Assembly: GCF_004138215.1 (NCBI RefSeq)
Contig: NZ_RYYS01000032.1
Coordinates: 1 to 64,000 of the forward strand
DNA: 64,000 nt
Direction of reading: 5' to 3'
Source of the DNA: Anaerophilus nitritigenes
GTDB taxonomy: Bacteria; Bacillota; Clostridia; Peptostreptococcales; Thermotaleaceae
Shown: positions 572 to 50,607 of the stretch, piece by piece
How the letters are laid out: each line of letters begins with the position of its first letter
Numbering within the stretch: position 1 is the first letter of the stretch
Made by a program: the position numbers and the translations under genes
The notes under the pieces: model-generated
What the model was told of the DNA's origin: nothing
What the model saw: only the letters and a program-made list of their open reading frames with translations
Databases searched by the model: none

Positions 572-2863
572 ATGAGAAGGCCTCTGTTTTGGATGAGTAT
601 TTTTTACATTATAGGAATTTTATATGGATATTTATTTTATCCATCTTATATAAGTATATTTTTTTTGTTTTTAATGGGTGCAGTATTTATTGTATATACG
701 AAAAAAATATACTTTTTTATTTTTCTTTTTTGCATTTTAATAGGTATTTTTCTTTTTAAGATGGATTGTGATCAAAAGAGTTTTTATGATTCTTTAGAAA
801 ATGAACATATAAAGATTACAGGAGATGTAATAGATATATATCATAAGAAGTCAACTTCCATTCTATTAAAAACAACTCAAGTGATATACAAAGAAAAAAT
901 ATATAAGGAAAAAGATAAAGTACTTATAAAATACAAAGGAAATAATAAAAAATTTGATAATATAGTGGGAAAGAGAGTTTCTATAGAAGGAAAGGTTATA
1001 AAGCCAAAGGGAAGAAGAAATCCCAATATGTTTGATTATTCTATGTATCTAAAAATGAAAAAAATTTATGGAGTATTGTATACAGATAAGATACAAATAG
1101 TTGGAGATGGAAAAGTTTCTCTTATATGGATTATGTCTAAAAACATAAAAAATAAAGTGATTGATTTGATAGAAAATATTATGCCTAAAGAAGAAGGGGA
1201 TATGCTATTAGGAATTATTCTAGGAAAAAAAGATGGTTTAGATGAACATATATATAAAACCTTTCAACGAGTAGGAGTAGCTCATATTCTTGCAATATCA
1301 GGGATGCATATAGGAATACTTTATTTATTTTTTGATAGATTACTAAAAAGATTTTCTGTGTATATAAGAGCTATTTTTCACTCTATAATTTTATGGATAT
1401 ATGCTTTTATTACTGGAGGAAGTCCTTCAGTTGTAAGAGCTGTTTTAATGATTCATATTTTTTTTATGGCACCTTTGCTCAATAGAAAGTATGATTCTTT
1501 AAGTGGAATTTCAATCATTGCTTTTTTACTTTTGATTATAAATCCTATGTATATTATAGATATTGGATTTGCACTTTCATTTTGTGCTGCTTTTTCCATT
1601 ATTATTTTATATAAGATTATTGATAAAAAATTAGTATGGATTCCAAAGATGGTTAGAAAATATTTAGTAGCTTCTATTGCTGCTCAAATAGGAACTATGC
1701 CTATTGTAGCGTATCACTTTTTTTATATCTCTTTTGGAGCTTTCATTATTAATATTCCTGTTGCTATTTTAATGGGTGTGATTGTACCTATGGGATTTAT
1801 AATGATTATAGTTGGATTTTTAAATACATTTTTAGCTTCAATTGTTGGGAAAATTCTTTCCTCTTTATTAAAGATCATGATCATTTTATGTGATTTTGTA
1901 GATCATATACCTTTTAGTAGTATAGAGGTGGTATCTCCACATTGGACATTTTTTTTATTTTATTATGGAATTATTGTTCTTTGTATTAGTAAAACAAAGT
2001 TTAAAATAAATAAAAATAAAATCATAGGAATGATTACAGGAATTTATATGATAAGCATAGGGATTAATTTTATAGTGCCTACAAAAATGAAAATAAATTT
2101 TGTAGATGTAGGACAAGGAGATTGTATATTGATTCAAACACCTATGCATAAGAATATTTTGATTGATGGGGGAGGAAGTTTAAGAAAAGAGATAGATATA
2201 GGAGAAAATATTGTGGTTCCTTATTTAAGAAGAAATGGAATAGGAAAGATTCATATGATGTTTGTATCTCATGCTCATAAAGATCATATAGATGGACTCA
2301 CTAGGGTGTTTGACCATATGAAAGTAGAAAATATGTTTATAGGAGCCAGGTGCAAAGATTCTATAGAAGAAAAAATACTTAGAGAAAAGTGTATGATTCA
2401 TAAAACAAGAGTGTATGAAATCTTAAGAAATGATACAATAAACATTGAACAAAATCTATCTTTTAAAATTCTTCATCCAAAAGATGATACGACTACATTG
2501 TCTGAAGCAAATGATGATTCATTAGTTATATTCATGAAGTATGAAAGGGTAGGCGTTTTATTTACAGGAGATATAGAAAAAGAAACAGAAGAAACAATTA
2601 TAAAAGAGTATCCTAAGCTTTATGTAGATATACTAAAGGTAGCTCATCATGGAAGTGCAACTTCTAGTACAGATGTTTTTATACAACATATAAAGCCTAA
2701 GGTGGGAGTGATTCAAGTAGGAAATAATAATTTTGGACATCCTAATCAAAGGGTATTAGATGAATTTTATAAAAATAAAGTAAAAGTATTTAGAAATGAT
2801 AAAAATGGTGCAGTAATTGTTATTATTGATAAAAATAAGATAAAAGTAAATACGATGGAATAA
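572..2863 (+). CDS. comEC: ComEC/Rec2 DNA-uptake channel protein
   Basis: Inner-membrane channel that carries single-stranded DNA into the cell during natural transformation. The 763 residues match the usual length. Layout: N-terminal membrane segments with the DUF4131-type soluble insert (about 1-190), the polytopic Competence domain (about 210-480, including GISGMHIG-like motif near 243), then a C-terminal metallo-beta-lactamase-like domain. That domain starts with FVDVGQGD near 509, carries HAHKDH at 567-572 and AHHG at 691-694, so the metal-binding histidines seem intact. An AAAGGA ribosome site precedes the ATG. holA follows after 13 bases, as in many Firmicutes. No comEA or comEB lies just upstream. 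Whether the organism is competent cannot be told from this gene alone. Confidence 0.93.
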   Translation: MRRPLFWMSIFYIIGILYGYLFYPSYISIFFLFLMGAVFIVYTKKIYFFIFLFCILIGIFLFKMDCDQKSFYDSLENEHIKITGDVIDIYHKKSTSILLKTTQVIYKEKIYKEKDKVLIKYKGNNKKFDNIVGKRVSIEGKVIKPKGRRNPNMFDYSMYLKMKKIYGVLYTDKIQIVGDGKVSLIWIMSKNIKNKVIDLIENIMPKEEGDMLLGIILGKKDGLDEHIYKTFQRVGVAHILAISGMHIGILYLFFDRLLKRFSVYIRAIFHSIILWIYAFITGGSPSVVRAVLMIHIFFMAPLLNRKYDSLSGISIIAFLLLIINPMYIIDIGFALSFCAAFSIIILYKIIDKKLVWIPKMVRKYLVASIAAQIGTMPIVAYHFFYISFGAFIINIPVAILMGVIVPMGFIMIIVGFLNTFLASIVGKILSSLLKIMIILCDFVDHIPFSSIEVVSPHWTFFLFYYGIIVLCISKTKFKINKNKIIGMITGIYMISIGINFIVPTKMKINFVDVGQGDCILIQTPMHKNILIDGGGSLRKEIDIGENIVVPYLRRNGIGKIHMMFVSHAHKDHIDGLTRVFDHMKVENMFIGARCKDSIEEKILREKCMIHKTRVYEILRNDTINIEQNLSFKILHPKDDTTTLSEANDDSLVIFMKYERVGVLFTGDIEKETEETIIKEYPKLYVDILKVAHHGSATSSTDVFIQHIKPKVGVIQVGNNNFGHPNQRVLDEFYKNKVKVFRNDKNGAVIVIIDKNKIKVNTME

Positions 2864-2876
2864 TAGGGGGATTTTT

Positions 2877-3929
2877 ATGGAATATAAAGATGTAATAAAG
2901 GATTTGAAAAATAATCAATTGAAAAATTTATATTTATTGTATGGAACAGAACATTATTTGATTGATCATACAATAAATACATTGAAAAAAGAAATTATTG
3001 ATGAAGCTTTTGAACAACTGAATTTTCAAGTGATAGATGGACAAGAAGCAGGTGTAAACACAATTATTAATGCTTGTGAAACTCTTCCTTTTATTGGGAA
3101 ATCAAGAATGATTGTTATAAAAGATTTAGAATGTTTTACGGGAAAAAGAAACAATATTAGTGAAGAAGAGGAGAAAAAACTTCTAGAATACTTAAAAAAC
3201 ATTCCAAATACAACTTATCTATTTTTTGTATCGAAGCAAGATGTAGATCAAAGAAAAAAGATTATAAAAGCTATTAAAAATTATGGAGATATAATAGTCT
3301 GTAGTAAATTAGGAGAAAAAGATATTTACAAATGGACTCAAAAAAGTTTTCATAAATATAATAAAGAAATAAAAGATAGAGAAATTAGGTTGTTAATTGA
3401 AATGATAGGTTACTTAGATAAAAATTCTCAAAAAACATTAGAAGATTTAGATCAAGAAATTCATAAACTGTGTAGTTATGTAGGAGATAGAAAAACAATT
3501 TTAAAAGAGGATATTGAAAATTTAGCACCAAAAACTATAGAAAACAATATATTTACGCTAGTAGAAGCCATTGGGACACAAAATGTAGAAAAAGCTTTGT
3601 ATTTGTTTAATGATATGTTAATAGAAGGAGAAGCAGAGACAAAAATTCTTTACATGATTACAAGACAGTTTAGACATCTATTTCAAATTAAAATAATGGA
3701 AAATCAAGGATATACTCCTATGGCTATAGGACCGAAGTTAGGATTGAAACAATTTGTAGTAAAAAAATACTTAGGCCAGGCTAAAAATTTTAATATTCAA
3801 AATTTAAAACAGTCTTTAAAAGTATGTTTGTCTACAGATGAAGCTATCAAAAAAGGAAGAATCGATGGAAAGATTGGTATGGAAATGTTGATTGTACAAT
3901 TTGCAGCAAAAAGTAAAAAAGCGTACTAG
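2877..3929 (+). CDS. holA: DNA polymerase III subunit delta
   Basis: Clamp-loader subunit that opens the beta sliding clamp ring during replication; the Bacillus equivalent is YqeN. The 350 residues have the usual family length and the typical opening (LKNLYLLYGTEHYLID), where the degenerate Walker A region lies. An AAA+-like N-terminal part is followed by the helical C-terminal collar (QMKIMENQGYTPMAIG-like region, residues about 270-300). A GGGGG ribosome site lies 7 bases before the ATG. It is co-transcribed with comEC (13-base gap). The terminator stem begins in the last codons, and rpsT converges from the other strand. Confidence 0.93.
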   Translation: MEYKDVIKDLKNNQLKNLYLLYGTEHYLIDHTINTLKKEIIDEAFEQLNFQVIDGQEAGVNTIINACETLPFIGKSRMIVIKDLECFTGKRNNISEEEEKKLLEYLKNIPNTTYLFFVSKQDVDQRKKIIKAIKNYGDIIVCSKLGEKDIYKWTQKSFHKYNKEIKDREIRLLIEMIGYLDKNSQKTLEDLDQEIHKLCSYVGDRKTILKEDIENLAPKTIENNIFTLVEAIGTQNVEKALYLFNDMLIEGEAETKILYMITRQFRHLFQIKIMENQGYTPMAIGPKLGLKQFVVKKYLGQAKNFNIQNLKQSLKVCLSTDEAIKKGRIDGKIGMEMLIVQFAAKSKKAY

Positions 3930-3946
3930 GTAGGTACGCTTTTGCA
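3917..3946. terminator. Bidirectional terminator between holA and rpsT
   Basis: Stem AAAAGCGTAC / GTACGCTTTT (10 bp) with loop TAGGTAG. T residues follow on the plus strand and an A run precedes on the left, so it can end both convergent transcripts. It overlaps the holA stop codon. Confidence 0.85.
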
Positions 3947-3975
3947 TATTCTATGGGGAATACATGACGGTTGTA

Positions 3976-4239
3976 TTACATAGCTTTGTTTAATTTATTT
4001 GCTAATTTAGCAACTTTTCTAGAAGCGGCATTTTTGTGAAGAGTACCTTTTGCAGCAGCTTGCATAATTTTCTTTTCAGCGAAAGAGAATTTTGCTTTTG
4101 CTTCTTCTACATTGCCAGCTGATAATGATTCTTCAAATCTTCTGATCGCTGTTTTAACGATAGATTTGATTTTTCTATTTCTAGCAGTTTTAACATCGAT
4201 TACTTTAATTCTTTTCTTAGCAGACTTAATATTTGCCAA
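3976..4239 (-). CDS. rpsT: 30S ribosomal protein S20
   Basis: Primary 16S rRNA-binding protein of the small subunit. From the TTG codon at 4239-4237 the product is 87 residues starting (M)ANIKSAKKRIKV, the classic S20 N-terminus, and it is lysine/arginine/alanine rich throughout. An upstream ATG gives a 22-residue extension without family support. The TTG is preceded by an AAGGGGGTG ribosome site with normal spacing, which decides the start. It is the only minus-strand gene in the first 42 kb, convergent with holA and divergent from gpr, the same arrangement as in Bacillus subtilis. Confidence 0.95.
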   Translation of the reverse strand: MANIKSAKKRIKVIDVKTARNRKIKSIVKTAIRRFEESLSAGNVEEAKAKFSFAEKKIMQAAAKGTLHKNAASRKVAKLANKLNKAM

Positions 4240-4426
4240 CCTGTTCACCCCCTTATTACCCAATTCAACAAAAGCTATTTTATCATGATTGTTGCAAAAA
4301 AGCAAGGGAAAAACTACTATTTGTTTTATATCCTTTAAAGTAAGTTTTTATACATGGTTTATCAGTAAAATGCGTACAATAAGAAAATATCTAAGAATAT
4401 TACGAGCAACTAAGGAGGATAAAAAC

Positions 4427-5401
4427 ATGTTTCAAATTAGAACTGATTTAGCTGTAGAATCAAGAGAAATGTATAGAGAAAATACAAAGACAGAAATTCC
4501 AGGAGTAGAAGTTCATCAAAGAGAAGAAAAGTTAGCTACGATTACTCATGTAGAGGTTTTAAATGATGAGGGAAGCAAAATAATGGGAAAACCTCAAGGC
4601 AGTTATATTACTATAGAGTCTTCAGGGCTTAAAAATCCAGATGCAGATTTAAAAGATGATGTAAGTAAAATTTTAGCAAAAGAGTTAGTAAGTTTGATAC
4701 CTAAAAAAAACAATTTTAAAACCCTTATAGTTGGACTTGGAAATGGGGATATTACACCAGATGCATTAGGACCTCAAGTTGTATCAAAAATATTTATCAC
4801 AAGGCATTTGTTTGAAACCTATAATAAGACAGATGATCCAAGTGTTAGGCCTGTCAGTGCAATCTCTCCTGGAGTCATGGGCACAACTGGTATTGAAACA
4901 GTAGAGATTATTAAAGGAATAGTAGAAAAAACAAAACCAGATTTAGTCATAGCCATAGATGCTTTGGCTTCAAGAAAAATGCAAAGAGTTCATTCTACCA
5001 TACAAATTTCTACTACGGGAATTCATCCAGGATCTGGAGTGGGAAATAAAAGAAAAGAATTAAGTGAACATACATTAGGAGTGCCCGTATTTGCAATTGG
5101 GGTACCTACAGTTGTAGATGCAGCGACTATGGCAAATGACACTATAGGATTAGTAGTAGAAGCTTTAAGCAATCAATCCTCTAAAGAATCTCAATTTTAT
5201 CAAATTCTCAAAGAAATGAATGAAGAGGATAAATATCATTTGATTAAAGAGGTGTTAGACCCGTATGGAGCCAATGTGATTGTAACTACAAAAGATATTG
5301 ATATGATTATTAGAAATATTTCTCAAATTATTGCAAATGGTATCAATATAGCACTTCATCCAGGGATTGATTTAAAAGATGTAAATAGATATTTGCAGTA
5401 A
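4427..5401 (+). CDS. gpr: GPR endopeptidase (germination protease)
   Basis: Spore protease (family A25) that degrades small acid-soluble spore proteins at germination. It is made as a zymogen in the forespore. The ATG at 4427 follows an AAGGAGGA ribosome site, giving 324 residues; the longer frame from 4289 has an unrelated 46-residue extension. The N-terminus MFQIRTDLAVESREM contains a SASP-like self-cleavage segment typical of the propeptide. Other family blocks seen: VGLGNGDITPDALGPQV, SPGVMGTTGIET, AIDALASRK and HPGSGVGNKRKE. spoIIP follows, as in Bacillus subtilis. No clear sigma-F/G promoter could be fixed in 4306-4426. Confidence 0.95.
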   Translation: MFQIRTDLAVESREMYRENTKTEIPGVEVHQREEKLATITHVEVLNDEGSKIMGKPQGSYITIESSGLKNPDADLKDDVSKILAKELVSLIPKKNNFKTLIVGLGNGDITPDALGPQVVSKIFITRHLFETYNKTDDPSVRPVSAISPGVMGTTGIETVEIIKGIVEKTKPDLVIAIDALASRKMQRVHSTIQISTTGIHPGSGVGNKRKELSEHTLGVPVFAIGVPTVVDAATMANDTIGLVVEALSNQSSKESQFYQILKEMNEEDKYHLIKEVLDPYGANVIVTTKDIDMIIRNISQIIANGINIALHPGIDLKDVNRYLQ

Positions 5402-5427
5402 TATATTTAAAAAGCCTCTCATATAAT
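5398..5427 (+). promoter_or_regulatory. Sigma-E-like promoter for spoIIP
   Basis: GTAATATA (5398-5405), 14-base spacer, CATATAAT (5420-5427). This fits the sigma-E pattern (GTMATATT-N14-CATACAAT) closely. The -35 overlaps the gpr stop codon. SpoIIP is a known sigma-E target in Bacillus subtilis. Confidence 0.65.
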
Positions 5428-5468
5428 TGATAGTACAAACAAAAGAGACAAGAGAGGTGTATGTATTC

Positions 5469-6680
5469 GTGAAAATAAAAGGTATTGACCTAAGAAAAAA
5501 TTATAAATGGATAGGAATTATCATTACTAGTTTAATGCTTGTTTTCTTTTTAAAAGTATTTATTTGGGATGCAAAAGATATCATTGTAAAAGCAAATGGT
5601 ATTTCAAAAGGAAAAGATATTGTACAAGCACAAGAAAAAGGATTTAAAGATGAGTTATTTATTACTATTTTGAATAAAAGCATTCCTGCTTTAGAAGTAA
5701 ATTATAAAAAAGAACATAAAAACTATAAAAGTATAAAAAAATTTTTTGTAGAAAAAATACTTAATTTTGATTATCAGGATCCTAAAACTTTATTTCAAGC
5801 ACAAATTTCTATGCTCAAAGAAGCAGATGATGATTTGGGAGAAGATCTACACGGGTTTTATGAAGAAGAAAATTCTAAAGAAAACAGTACAAAAGATATA
5901 ACTCAACAAGTGATGAAACAGGAAGATTTAGTCATACCTACACAAAATGAAAACTCTCAGTCTAAAGAAGAAACAAAGACTGCAAATAGTATTGTAGAGG
6001 AACCTAAAGAAAATGTAAAAATTATAAGTTCTCCTATTCAAAAACCTGCAAAGCTTACATTAGATAAAAACAATCCTTCTATTTTTATCTACCATACACA
6101 TCCCACAGAATCTTATATGCCTGAGTCTGTAGGAAATTTTCATTCTTTAAATCGGAAATATACAGTAAGAGCAGTAGCTGATGAGTTGACAAAATCTTTG
6201 AAAAATAAAGGATATAAGGTGCTTCATGACGAGACACTACATGATTATCCATCATATCAAAAATCTTATGTAAGATCTTTAGAGACACTTACAAATCATT
6301 TGAATCAATATCCTAGTGTTAAAGTTGTATTTGATGTTCATAGAGATGCTGCACCTAATACGGATACAGCTAGAGAAAATAGTTATATAATAATCAATGG
6401 ACAAAAGGTAGCTAAATTTGCTATTGTTGTCGGAATGCAAAATGAAAATGTAGAAAAACTTTTAGTTCTTGCAAATTATATAAAAGCAAAAAGTGATGAA
6501 AAATATCCAGGATTAGCAAAAAAAATTATTCCAAAGCCTTATAAATTTAATCAATACAATTCAGATTATTATGTATTGTTAGAAATGGGAAATACTGCTA
6601 ATACTATAGATGAAGCAGAAAGAACAGCAAAATATTTAGGAGAAATTTTGAATGAAGTACTAGAAGATATAAAAAATTAG
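5469..6680 (+). CDS. spoIIP: Stage II sporulation protein P
   Basis: Peptidoglycan amidase/endopeptidase that, with SpoIID and SpoIIM, thins the septal wall for engulfment of the forespore. The GTG at 5469 follows AGAGAGGTGT with good spacing and gives 403 residues, starting MKIKGIDLRKNYKW. One membrane anchor lies at about 13-32. A low-complexity Glu/Lys/Asn-rich linker (about 130-200) follows, then the catalytic SpoIIP domain with IYHTHPTESY (first metal His and Glu) and FDVHRDAAP (second His). A longer ORF start at 5427 lies inside the sigma-E-like -10 region and is unlikely. It is preceded by gpr. Confidence 0.93.
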   Translation: MKIKGIDLRKNYKWIGIIITSLMLVFFLKVFIWDAKDIIVKANGISKGKDIVQAQEKGFKDELFITILNKSIPALEVNYKKEHKNYKSIKKFFVEKILNFDYQDPKTLFQAQISMLKEADDDLGEDLHGFYEEENSKENSTKDITQQVMKQEDLVIPTQNENSQSKEETKTANSIVEEPKENVKIISSPIQKPAKLTLDKNNPSIFIYHTHPTESYMPESVGNFHSLNRKYTVRAVADELTKSLKNKGYKVLHDETLHDYPSYQKSYVRSLETLTNHLNQYPSVKVVFDVHRDAAPNTDTARENSYIIINGQKVAKFAIVVGMQNENVEKLLVLANYIKAKSDEKYPGLAKKIIPKPYKFNQYNSDYYVLLEMGNTANTIDEAERTAKYLGEILNEVLEDIKN

Positions 6681-6750
6681 AATAAAAAATTCGTATATTT
6701 CTATAGAATAAAAAATCTTTCTATTGACGAAAATAATATTGGTGATCAAT

Positions 6751-29472: not shown

Positions 29473-30066
29473 ATGAAAAACATAAGGAAAATGTTTGTAA
29501 CAGGACTTTTGGTATTAATACCAATTGTAGTGACTATATCCTTAATAGGATGGGTATTTAATAAGATCGATTCTATATTTAGGATTCCATTAGAAAAAAT
29601 AATAGGTTTTCCGCTTATAGGTGTAGGAGTTATTTTAAATCTAATTATTATTACTAGCACAGGTTTTTTTGCTACCAATTATTTAGGTAAAAAAATTATT
29701 TACTTTATTGAAAAAACATTAATAAAAATTCCATTGGTAAATACTATATACATATCTGTAAAACAATTGATTCATACTCTTTTTTTAAAGCAAAGAGATG
29801 CGTTTAAGAGTGCCGTTTTGGTACAATATCCATCAAAAGGCATTTATACCATAGGATTTATTACAGCAGATACACCAATAGAAATTTCAAAGAATTTAGA
29901 TAAAGATATGAAAAGCATTTTTATTCCTACCACACCAAATCCTACGTCGGGTATGTTTGTGATGATTCCTAAAAGTGATATTATAGTACTTGATATTTCT
30001 ATTGAAGTGGCTTTAAAGCTTGTAGTATCTGGAGGAATTTTGATGCCTGATCAAAGAAAAAAATAA
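29473..30066 (+). CDS. DUF502 family membrane protein
   Basis: A 197-residue membrane protein of the DUF502 family, function unknown. Two membrane segments are visible (about 9-28, TGLLVLIPIVVTISLIGWVF; about 48-70). Family features include PLVNTIYISVKQL, KQRDAFKSAVLVQYPSKG and the C-terminal TPNPTSGMFVMIPKSDI block followed by SGGILMP. The GGAGG site is 12 bases from the ATG, a little far. It is followed by cdd after 14 bases. Confidence 0.88.
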   Translation: MKNIRKMFVTGLLVLIPIVVTISLIGWVFNKIDSIFRIPLEKIIGFPLIGVGVILNLIIITSTGFFATNYLGKKIIYFIEKTLIKIPLVNTIYISVKQLIHTLFLKQRDAFKSAVLVQYPSKGIYTIGFITADTPIEISKNLDKDMKSIFIPTTPNPTSGMFVMIPKSDIIVLDISIEVALKLVVSGGILMPDQRKK

Positions 30067-45578: not shown

Positions 45579-45918
45579 CGAGTAAGTCAGATGATCGCGG
45601 CTCATGCTATGCATGGACGAGGAAAGTCCGAGCTCCGTAGGGCAAGGGTGCTGGGTAATACCCAGTGGAGGTGACTCTAAGGAAAGTGCAACAGAAAGAA
45701 ACCGCCAATCTTTGTTGGTAAGGATGGAAAGGTGAGGTAAGAGCTCACCAGAGGCTAGGCGACTAGTCTGCTATGTAAACCCCACCCGGAGCAAGACCAA
45801 GTAGGGACAAAAAAGCGGCTGCCCGTCGCGTCCCGTGGTAGGTCGCTTGAGTCTACTGGCAACAGTAGACCTAGATAGATGATCATTTAATACAGAACTC
45901 GGCTTATAGACTTGCTCG
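45579..45918 (+). ncRNA. rnpB: RNase P RNA component
   Basis: Catalytic RNA that cuts the 5' leader from tRNA precursors. The ends pair: CGAGTAAGTC (45579-45588) with GACTTGCTCG (45909-45918), the P1 helix. Conserved core blocks are visible: GAGGAAAGTCC, ACAGAAA, GTAAACCCCACC, and ACAGAACTCGGCTTATA near the 3' end. About 340 nt. The exact ends are set from P1 and may differ by a few bases. A terminator follows at 45931. Confidence 0.97.
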
Positions 45919-45930
45919 ATTTTAAATGAT

Positions 45931-48044: not shown

Positions 48045-49025
48045 TTAATCTTCACAATAGTTGTCTTCAGAAGCTTGCACTTGAGTTTCTTCTACTTGTT
48101 CTGCTGCATCTTGTCTGCATGGCTTTCTTTTATCATCGATTTGATTTGGGAATAATTGAGGGAATGTTGTACATATTGGAGATGTGTCTGCTTCAAGTAC
48201 AGGGAATCCTGTAGATAATACACAAAGTTGTACAGGAACAATAATTTTCTTTTCGCAAGTTACACATAAAGCGATAATTAAGTTTACACAAACTGCTCCA
48301 GTATTCGGATCTATACTAAAATCTCTTAAGATGCTATTGGTTGCAAGTCTAGTTTCGCAATCAATATTACAAAATTCAGTAAATCTTGGTAAAAATGCTG
48401 TATCAAATACAGATGGCATACATAATTCAAAGAAGTTTGTGAGTATAAGAGGAGAGCCATCTCTAGCAATAGGAACATTAGCTGTAAGTGTAATTGGACA
48501 TTGTTTATCACAGTTATCTGTATAGATTATATCAATTTCAATAACTACATTTCCAGTAATCTCTACATTTTGTGTTCCAAAAATAGGAGTTCCTTTAAAT
48601 TCATTATCACATGATTCTGTATTTGTATAAAGAATTTTTTCTGATTTTGTACCATCTGGGCCGATTACTTGTATAGGCTTTCCACATCCATCTTCAACAA
48701 AATCTGCTCCAGAAACAGTTGTAATAGGTTTTACCTTTAAATTTCTTTCATCATTTATATTTGCAGGATTAAAGAACTTTCTGCATCGAATATCTAATAC
48801 TCTTGTGATTCTTGAATTACTACCTAAATTAGGTTGAAGAGGTTGGCAAGAGATTGTTCTTAATCCTTGTAAATTAAATAGTGCAGCATCATAAACCTTT
48901 TGAACATATACAGGTTCAGCCACTACATTTCTAAGTGACCCATCAAAATGACATCCAGTAGTTGCAGTACAGCATTTATCACTAATAGCAAGACTTGCAG
49001 GTCTTGTATTACTATTACATCCCAT
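48045..49025 (-). CDS. Cysteine-rich protein, probable spore-surface component
   Basis: A 326-residue protein with 20 cysteines and no signal peptide or membrane segment. It opens MGCNSNTRPASLAISDKCC, has beta-strand-rich stretches such as VEITGNVVIEIDIIYTD and VNLIIALCVTCEKKIIVPVQ, and ends in an acidic tail. Many cysteines in a leaderless protein fit disulfide-crosslinked coat or exosporium proteins. A strong AAGGAGGTC site precedes the ATG. A sigma-K-like element lies upstream. Family not recognised; distant similarity to the strand pattern of SPOCS/DUF3794 domains is possible but unproven. Confidence 0.72.
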   Translation of the reverse strand: MGCNSNTRPASLAISDKCCTATTGCHFDGSLRNVVAEPVYVQKVYDAALFNLQGLRTISCQPLQPNLGSNSRITRVLDIRCRKFFNPANINDERNLKVKPITTVSGADFVEDGCGKPIQVIGPDGTKSEKILYTNTESCDNEFKGTPIFGTQNVEITGNVVIEIDIIYTDNCDKQCPITLTANVPIARDGSPLILTNFFELCMPSVFDTAFLPRFTEFCNIDCETRLATNSILRDFSIDPNTGAVCVNLIIALCVTCEKKIIVPVQLCVLSTGFPVLEADTSPICTTFPQLFPNQIDDKRKPCRQDAAEQVEETQVQASEDNYCED

Positions 49026-49070
49026 AGTTTTGACCTCCTTTTATATTTAGAGATTATCTTCTCTCAATGC

Positions 49071-49099
49071 TAGTATATTCATGACAAAAAAATTGTGTG
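49071..49099 (-). promoter_or_regulatory. Possible sigma-K-like promoter of the Cys-rich gene
   Basis: On the minus strand, CACA (49099-49096), 16-base spacer, AATATACTA (49079-49071), against the sigma-K pattern AC-N16/17-CATANNNTA (one mismatch in the -10). It would fit late mother-cell expression. Short motifs, so the call is tentative. Confidence 0.35.
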
Positions 49100-49200
49100 C
49101 CATTTCATGAAATAGATTTTGTCATATATTTCTTGTTTGTTAAATATGATAATAAAAGAAAAGTTGAAACTTATGAAATTTGTAATTAGGTGGTGAGAAT

Positions 49201-50262
49201 ATGCCATTTTCAAATCAAAAAAATATTTTAATGCATGATGGAGTGGGCAATTTATACAGTTTTCAAGAAGAAAAAGGAAAAATAATCTATACATATTTTG
49301 ATAAAAAAATAGGTGAATATAAAAAAGAAGTACTAATAGAAGATAGTAGTAAAGAATTTGATGCAGCTATGGATGAAAATGATTTATATGTGGTCTATCA
49401 AAATACAAAAGGTCATATTATACTTATGACTTTTAAAAAAGGAGTATGGTATGAAAATTCTTTAGGAGGAGATTTGAGTCTAAAAGTTTTGAATTTAAAC
49501 ATTGTACGATATAAAGGAAAAGTTCATATTTTTTATTGCGTCAAAGCAAGGGAAAATTCTATGTATTATAGAATTTATCATCATTATTATGATGATAAAG
49601 AATGGAGAAGCTTTATAGTAGAAGATATTGAAATTACAAAAATTTTAAATCCATTTCAATTCATAAGTCATGAAAATAAATTATTGATTGGTTTTTATCA
49701 GTCTATAAAAGGATATGACCAAATATTTATAAAAGAATTTGATATGCAAAAACAAGAGTGGAAACCTTCAATACAATTAACATGGTCTAGTTATGAAAAA
49801 TTATATTTAAATTTACTTATGATCCATAAAGATTTAATTCATATAACTTATTCAGCTTATATAGATGGAAACTTGATGATAAAGTATGAAAAATATAGAC
49901 TAGAACAAGATAAGGCTATTAAAAAGATTGAACATATTTTATCAAATCCTGCAAATTGTACTTATCCATTATTTGTAAAAGAAAAAGAAAAACTTTGGAC
50001 CGTTTGGACTGAATATGATCAAGTGGTTAGTAGTTTTTCTATAGATGAAGGAATTACATGGAGTGACCCTTATTTGTGGAAAGAGTCAAAGGGAATATTA
50101 TTTTTCCAATATAAATATTATACAAATTATAAAAAAATAAAAGATAATTATCAACTTTGTTATGCTTTTGGTAAAGCATATCCTGAATTTTCATTTATGG
50201 GATTTGGTCCTTTAAAAGAAGTTCAAAAAATTCCTGTAAAAAAAAAGAGGAGGTATCTGTGA
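49201..50262 (+). CDS. Beta-propeller-like protein of unknown function
   Basis: A 353-residue leaderless protein. About six repeats of roughly 45-55 residues recur, each with a hydrophobic strand then Y-x-x-Y or F-Y/W-x-E patterns: DLYVVYQNTKGHIILMTF, KVHIFYCVKARENSMYYRIY, KLLIGFYQSIKGYDQIFIKE, LIHITYSAYIDGNLMIKYEK and LWTVWTEYDQVVSSFSIDEG. The last contains an Asp-box (S-x-D-x-G-x-T-W, about 279-286), a sialidase-type propeller mark. The AGGTGGTGAG site supports the ATG. It is divergent from the Cys-rich gene and coupled to the coiled-coil gene downstream. No enzyme residues could be assigned. Confidence 0.75.
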   Translation: MPFSNQKNILMHDGVGNLYSFQEEKGKIIYTYFDKKIGEYKKEVLIEDSSKEFDAAMDENDLYVVYQNTKGHIILMTFKKGVWYENSLGGDLSLKVLNLNIVRYKGKVHIFYCVKARENSMYYRIYHHYYDDKEWRSFIVEDIEITKILNPFQFISHENKLLIGFYQSIKGYDQIFIKEFDMQKQEWKPSIQLTWSSYEKLYLNLLMIHKDLIHITYSAYIDGNLMIKYEKYRLEQDKAIKKIEHILSNPANCTYPLFVKEKEKLWTVWTEYDQVVSSFSIDEGITWSDPYLWKESKGILFFQYKYYTNYKKIKDNYQLCYAFGKAYPEFSFMGFGPLKEVQKIPVKKKRRYL

Positions 50263-50480
50263 TGGAATCTGAAGAAAAAATAAAAATAGAAGAAAAAGTA
50301 GAAAAAAAAGAAAAACAAAAGATAGAAGATGTATTCATAAAAGAAAATGAATTTAAAAAACTAAATGAAGAAATAAAAATACTTTCAGAAGAAATGAAAA
50401 AATTAGAAGAACTTCATGAAAGAGTTCATCATATCGAAGAATATTTAAGTAGAAGAAGAGGATTATTTGGAAGAAGATAA
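50262..50480 (+). CDS. Small coiled-coil protein
   Basis: A 72-residue, highly charged protein (MESEEKIKIEEKVEKKEKQK at the start), predicted as a continuous helix with heptads in 30-60 (LNEEIKILSEEMKKLEELHE). It ends in a basic RRRGLFGRR. The ATG overlaps the stop of the propeller gene by one base (TGATG), with GAGGAGGT upstream, so the two are translationally coupled and probably work together. Function unknown. A strong terminator follows. Confidence 0.7.
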   Translation: MESEEKIKIEEKVEKKEKQKIEDVFIKENEFKKLNEEIKILSEEMKKLEELHERVHHIEEYLSRRRGLFGRR

Positions 50481-50520: not shown

Positions 50521-50607
50521 TGGTGCCGAAGGCGGGGGTCGAACCCGCACGATGTTGCCATCACTGGATTTTGAGTCCAGCGCGTCTGCCAATTCCACCA
50601 CTTCGGC
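50521..50607 (-). tRNA. tRNA-Leu (anticodon CAA)
   Basis: The minus strand reads GCCGAAGTGGTGGAATTGGC at the 5' end, a long variable arm, the T-arm GGGTTCGACCC, and acceptor CTTCGGC before A and the encoded CCA. The anticodon loop CTCAAAA gives CAA (50573-50571). It is 87 nt with CCA. A promoter lies at 50650-50622. Confidence 0.97.

Follow-up and report, generated by a model that had tools for sequence, protein, structure and literature searches.

This locus raises the question of what role a cysteine-rich protein and a divergently oriented propeller and coiled-coil pair, in none of which the original prediction recognised a family, may play in a clostridial genome. The window, that is, the whole stretch of 64,000 nucleotides analysed (G000:C40:1-64000), belongs to a 3.06-Mb genome in 112 contigs, and its ORF list holds the three genes where they had been placed: A on the minus strand (48045-49025, 326 aa), and B (49201-50262, 353 aa) and C (50259-50480) on the plus strand. 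The region is flanked by a class A RNase P RNA (45579-45922, plus strand) on one side and a tRNA-Leu (CAA) (50521-50607, minus strand) on the other. A profile search bore out the absence of a recognised family: A and B matched nothing in Pfam or NCBIfam at E <= 1, the BNR/Asp-box families PF02012 and PF13088 included in the case of B, and C, a K/E-rich 73-aa ORF ending SRRRGLFGRR, gave only weak coiled-coil-type matches below the curated cut-offs. Both A and B are present in 16 of 16 family genomes and stand head to head in all 16, and 12 of the 20 cysteines of A are conserved in 41 or all 42 of the aligned proteins; the A/B pair is therefore more than a chance arrangement. We propose that A and B probably help to build the outer layers of the spore.

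The translation of A contains the expected 20 cysteines in 326 residues, with a pI of 4.65, and the total among its aligned relatives ranges from 12 to 32. Its N-terminus (MGCNSNTRPASLAISDKCC) is devoid of a hydrophobic leader, which, judged from the sequence itself, agrees with the predicted lack of an export signal. The structural model of A (mean pLDDT 78.6) is good in the core only, a predicted long-stranded beta region spanning residues 30-272 approximately, and is low for residues 1-25 and 275-326, the ends being predicted as disordered. Foldseek returned no PDB match to this model at E <= 0.001, which is not proof of a new fold, and a second structural comparison reached a best Z of 3.2 with no convincing solved structure; searching PDB sequences with A alone, B alone and the A5 and A4 profiles likewise produced no meaningful match. 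As a clostridial sporulation protein rich in beta strands, A could in principle be a SipL-like protein whose SPOCS domain (PF12673) has diverged too far for Pfam detection, but we hold this to be very improbable: the 42 members gave chance-level Pfam matches only, none of them to SPOCS, and hhalign comparison with the SPOCS domains of relatives returned profile-profile probabilities of 0.2% and 0.5%.

B had been described as a propeller with one Asp-box, and both elements of that description stand. A single exact Asp-box (SIDEGITW) is found at residue 280, and the predicted model (pLDDT 90.3, pTM 0.89) folds as a propeller in which seven blades can be counted from the strand list. Weak BNR matches appear in 4 of 23 relatives of B (best E 0.0088), and the relative in L222 scores 13.9 and 14.8 bits against BNR/Asp-box cut-offs of 27 and 31.4, hence below them. 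The closest structure to the B model is the lectin PLL3 (Z 23.0, rmsd 3.5, 295 residues aligned), within a group formed by PLL3, PLL4, PLL, PLL2 and PHL (Z 22-23, with an rmsd of about 3.5 over about 300 aligned residues and about 10% identity) and followed by glycoside hydrolases and lyases at Z of about 20-22; the best Foldseek TM-score among the matches listed is 0.62, for PHL. A profile search of PDB sequences for a relation of B to a solved lectin gave no match at E <= 1. We thus regard B as a lectin-like propeller, for which sugar binding is suggested by a predicted fold at about 10% identity. Elsewhere in these genomes lie paralogues of the B propeller (G000:C51:53628-54182 and loci L036-L042); their C-terminal parts are coiled-coil-like and carry short aromatic-basic tails.

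The sigma-K-like promoter that the original prediction placed before A is present at 49071-49099 on the minus strand and is conserved across relatives; a Shine-Dalgarno sequence (AGGAGG, 49034-49039, minus strand) lies between it and the gene. The sigma-K consensus reads mACm, 16-17 nt, CATANNNTA, and the window promoter, CAC-N17-AATATACTA, is one base off this consensus, at the first base of the -10 element. Alignment of the A-B intergenic regions of 15 family loci (G014 was left out, its A being cut by the contig end) revealed two conserved blocks. On the A strand, GAATATA is invariant in 15/15, and a relaxed pattern chosen after viewing this alignment, [AC]AC-N16/17-[CA]ATANNNTA, occurs in 12/15, against a mean of 0.58 and a maximum of 4 in shuffles; 10 of the 15 carry it at the conserved place, the matches in L010 and L011 lying elsewhere, 190-193 nt from the start. 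Where the named loci reach far enough upstream, the textbook motif precedes A in 19 of 76 relatives and 4 of 485 control genes, and the relaxed motif in 51/76 and 11/481, respectively. All 19 textbook hits fall among the 50 loci in which no full-length B was found and none among the 26 in which B is adjacent; the relaxed motif occurs in 20 of these 26, where the first -10 base is A and not C. The other block, CATATATT (49123-49130, plus strand), lies upstream of B and is conserved in most of the 15 loci. It fits no complete sporulation promoter and is possibly a mother-cell-type -10 with no recognised -35. The relaxed sigma-K motif was found upstream of B in 0 of 27 loci, and a sigma-E promoter for B was rejected, the two-part motif being found in 0/26.

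The distribution of the two genes follows that of sporulation. A profile search of genome contigs retrieved 109 relatives of A, 80 of which were kept as loci. Full-length B was found by tblastn in 26 of these 80, always head to head and in 25 cases within 250 nt (a 137-aa hit in L090 was dropped before counting, and some loci end so close to A that the absence of B is not always shown). In a sample of 297 genomes of the order, A is present in 90, B in 81 (the B profile also catches paralogous propellers, so that some B counts are paralogs) and the SpoIVA ATPase domain (PF09547) in 135. A and SpoIVA occur together in 87 genomes, A alone in 3, SpoIVA alone in 48 and neither in 159; B accompanies SpoIVA in 80 genomes and occurs without it in one. 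The corresponding Fisher values are about 1e-35 for A and 2e-34 for B, phylogeny being ignored. In family f11, all 37 SpoIVA-positive genomes carry A, as does one further genome with no SpoIVA. The co-occurrence with spore formers anticipated by the original prediction was thus observed and, with the head-to-head pairing and the promoter motif, lends the spore reading strong though indirect support. No clear homologue in a non-sporulating bacterium, which would have counted against it, emerged in the order: the three A-bearing genomes that lack SpoIVA are 76%, 86% and 96% complete, and the latter two carry sigma-K above the curated cut-off. When both genes are present the arrangement is head to head in 44 of 48 order genomes; A is found without B in 42 and B without A in 33, many families having only one of the two.

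The original prediction had spoken of possible spore-surface components in this lineage, but the locus is not peculiar to it, and comparable pairs are found in further clostridial families. A class-wide profile (A5, 21 rows) detected A-like proteins in 85 of 391 class genomes, many by their C-terminal part only. SpoIVA was found in 74 of the 80 carriers tested (from 81 that had not been tested in the order sample), the remaining 6 being 61-94% complete. It was also found in 55 of 80 class genomes with no A-like hit, namely those with handles G297-G400 not listed as positive, from 306 that gave no match. Since 48 of the 135 SpoIVA-positive order genomes lack A and these 55 A-like-negative class genomes carry SpoIVA, the pair is not a general spore component. 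In 20 regions hand-picked from the A5 rows (15 genomes, 14 outside the order), an A-like gene faces a B-like propeller head to head in 13, from 9 genomes and 8 family-level groups, and no such pair occurs in 7; these counts are not fully independent, the B profile used here including three propellers that neighbour A-like genes. A SpoIVA gene adjoins A in L062, and SpoVS is encoded near the A-like gene in L253.

Several observations made in the course of this survey deserve mention in their own right. A gene for a small protein stands beside the A-like genes in L253 (6188-6448), L255, L256 and L267, the L253 copy matching a putative Se/S carrier family (PF11823), and in two further families of the order the neighbourhood of the A/B pair includes genes for Cys-rich DUF4489 (PF14879) proteins (L206:9011-9649 and L208:974-2518). 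Small genomes with sporulation genes are unusual, and six genomes of family f16 (G392, G415, G460, G555, G569 and G585; 0.9-1.2 Mb, 98-100% complete) encode SpoIVA and an A-like protein. In the genome of the window itself, about 5 kb separate the two parts of the sigma-K-like gene (L272, G000:C51:85500-93500, at about 960-6730); the intervening DNA, which encodes two large serine recombinases and a cell-wall hydrolase, looks like a skin-type element.

The relationship between B and C is more complicated. The stop codon of B overlaps the start of C, which is either GTG at 50259 (73 aa) or ATG at 50262 within TGATG (72 aa), and a Shine-Dalgarno-like GAGGAGG (50247-50253) just upstream could serve an independent or a coupled start of this coiled-coil-like protein, which ends IEEYLSRRRGLFGRR. 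The translational coupling announced by the original prediction fits the overlap and the GAGGAGG, but C does not hold up as an independent partner: B and C form a single ORF of 413-458 aa in 14 of 16 family genomes, in which a propeller is followed by a charged coiled coil and a tail such as RRRRGLFR. The two genomes with a separate C are those of the window and of its one congener. More widely, the 26 named loci with full-length B comprise 15 fusions, 6 in which a C-like ORF directly follows B as a gene of its own and 5 in which none was found, and three loci of family f3 have a coupled coiled-coil-like ORF of 139-182 aa instead of C. In a tree of 40 propellers, the genus of the window is nested in a group with strong support (98/96) whose other members are fused forms; the split state requires three changes on this tree. 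The fusion in most relatives and this placement suggest that B and C act together and that the split in the window is derived.

The point at which the split occurred may still be visible. In the window and its congener, the same run of nine A residues (50238-50246 in the window, plus strand) is found at the junction, followed by GAGGAGG, and a -1 slip on this run would give a continuous B-C fusion (426 or 427 aa) that is similar to the fused relatives around its join. Over both strands, 230,820 bases of the contig that carries the window contain 15 runs of at least nine As, 4 of which lie well inside long ORFs, and the B/C junction is the only such run near an ORF end with a long open shifted frame. 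A single such junction is still found with runs of at least eight, and two with runs of at least seven. The additional one is an A7 run at window position 30063, where another ORF stops and the -1 frame stays open for a long stretch, so that the uniqueness of the B/C junction is limited to runs of at least eight. The ancestral B-C gene may thus have been split at the A9 run in the genus of the window, the fused protein still being made by slippage there and C alone by coupled initiation. The chances are about even, however, that no slippage is involved, the split being an assembly error, and hence not real, or a plain recent frameshift after which C is made only by coupled re-initiation. A-runs are hotspots for error and mutation alike, TGATG in the window and TAATG in the congener, each with GAGGAGG, are good coupled starts, and real B/C splits occur in other lineages. 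A search for a stimulatory RNA hairpin at the junction detected no structure beyond shuffles (z -0.52), on which ground we rejected hairpin-stimulated ribosomal -1 frameshifting. Against an error or a plain frameshift, the same A9 junction is found in two separate assemblies, with C intact and the -1 frame open in both. Slippage, coupled re-initiation or both are possible at this junction.

Taken as a whole, the locus is likely to encode a spore-envelope module in which the mother cell supplies A as a component of the coat or exosporium, linked by disulphides, and B-C is a propeller of lectin-like shape anchored by a coiled coil and a basic tail. A would be made late in the mother cell from its sigma-K-type promoter, a timing suggested by the conserved motif, and its 12 conserved cysteines could serve to cross-link it into a layer of the coat or exosporium. 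B, shaped in its predicted model like bacterial sugar-binding lectins, would be held in or on the layer of A by C, that is, by a C-terminal coiled coil and a basic-aromatic tail acting as a tether, and would probably bind a spore-surface glycan or A itself. Expression of both genes in the mother cell would explain the strict head-to-head arrangement. Of the scaffold and anchor that the original prediction saw in B and C, the anchor fits this proposal, and the scaffold gives way to the lectin-like propeller suggested by the model.

We infer that A and B are placed on the spore surface rather than having another late role in the mother cell. The promoter motif and the co-occurrence with SpoIVA bear on timing and lineage only, and the fold of B is common to enzymes too; both would suit late mother-cell sporulation proteins that work off the surface as assembly factors, or as cross-linking or glycan-handling helpers, and are lost at lysis. 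We consider such a role unlikely: the conserved Cys-rich make-up of A and its lack of a leader resemble those of coat and exosporium proteins such as CsxA (PMC4942563). CsxA itself suggests another reading, in which A would belong to the CsxA family as a distant relative and B would be the "highly conserved ORF" divergent from csxA. CsxA of Clostridium sporogenes is described as a protein of 299 residues with 25 Cys (PMC4942563); it forms the exosporium lattice by self-assembly, and a highly conserved ORF lies divergent to its gene (PMC7333573). Size and Cys content are similar in A, and divergent A-like/B-like pairs recur outside the order. However, the window pair lies outside the zapA to U32-peptidase cluster that houses csxA, although distant homologues are not always located there according to the same paper (PMC7333573), and we find direct kinship improbable.

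The spore-envelope module remains our preferred interpretation, and the similar layout prompts the conjecture that the csxA locus might belong with the A/B pair. Should this be so, one might tentatively envisage a spore-surface system spread over the whole clostridial class: a new Cys-rich beta family would form the layer and a dedicated head-to-head propeller lectin would decorate or cross-link it through spore glycans, the csxA pair being one branch and the ratio of free to anchored propeller being set by A9 slippage in the genus of the window.

To our knowledge, the outer layers of spores are barely described in most Clostridia beyond C. difficile and C. sporogenes. A pair that is conserved over many families and has no Pfam or NCBIfam name provides a direct list of genes to test, and its paired layout with conserved partners offers a route to unknown spore components in uncultured species by sequence alone. 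If the propeller does bind sugars, as its predicted model suggests, a lectin would be an integral part of these spores, with a bearing on adhesion and on how the layers assemble. A search of the open-access literature (subscription journals were outside its scope) found no description of the A/B pair in the parts available, including those of PMC11952670 and PMC13339974.

How, then, does the locus compare with known systems? The comparison with CsxA is by description: both proteins are Cys-rich, of about 300 residues, and encoded opposite a divergent conserved ORF. They differ in gene neighbourhood, in that a lattice is known for CsxA whereas A is known from its gene alone, and in that the role proposed for B is not described for the csxA locus in the available parts of the papers. 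ExsY and CotY of the Bacillus cereus group and CdeC of Clostridioides difficile are likewise described as Cys-rich proteins of the spore surface that the mother cell produces (PMC7333573, PMC4942563); A shares this Cys-rich make-up, a likeness again by description only, but falls in no Pfam or NCBIfam family. B has one Asp-box in common with the sialidase-like BNR/Asp-box propellers, although the window protein gives no match to these families and the relative in L222 falls short of their curated cut-offs. Its predicted model is closest in fold to the Photorhabdus PLL/PHL lectins, from which B is set apart by its low identity and lack of a profile match and by the coiled coil and basic tail that extend its propeller.
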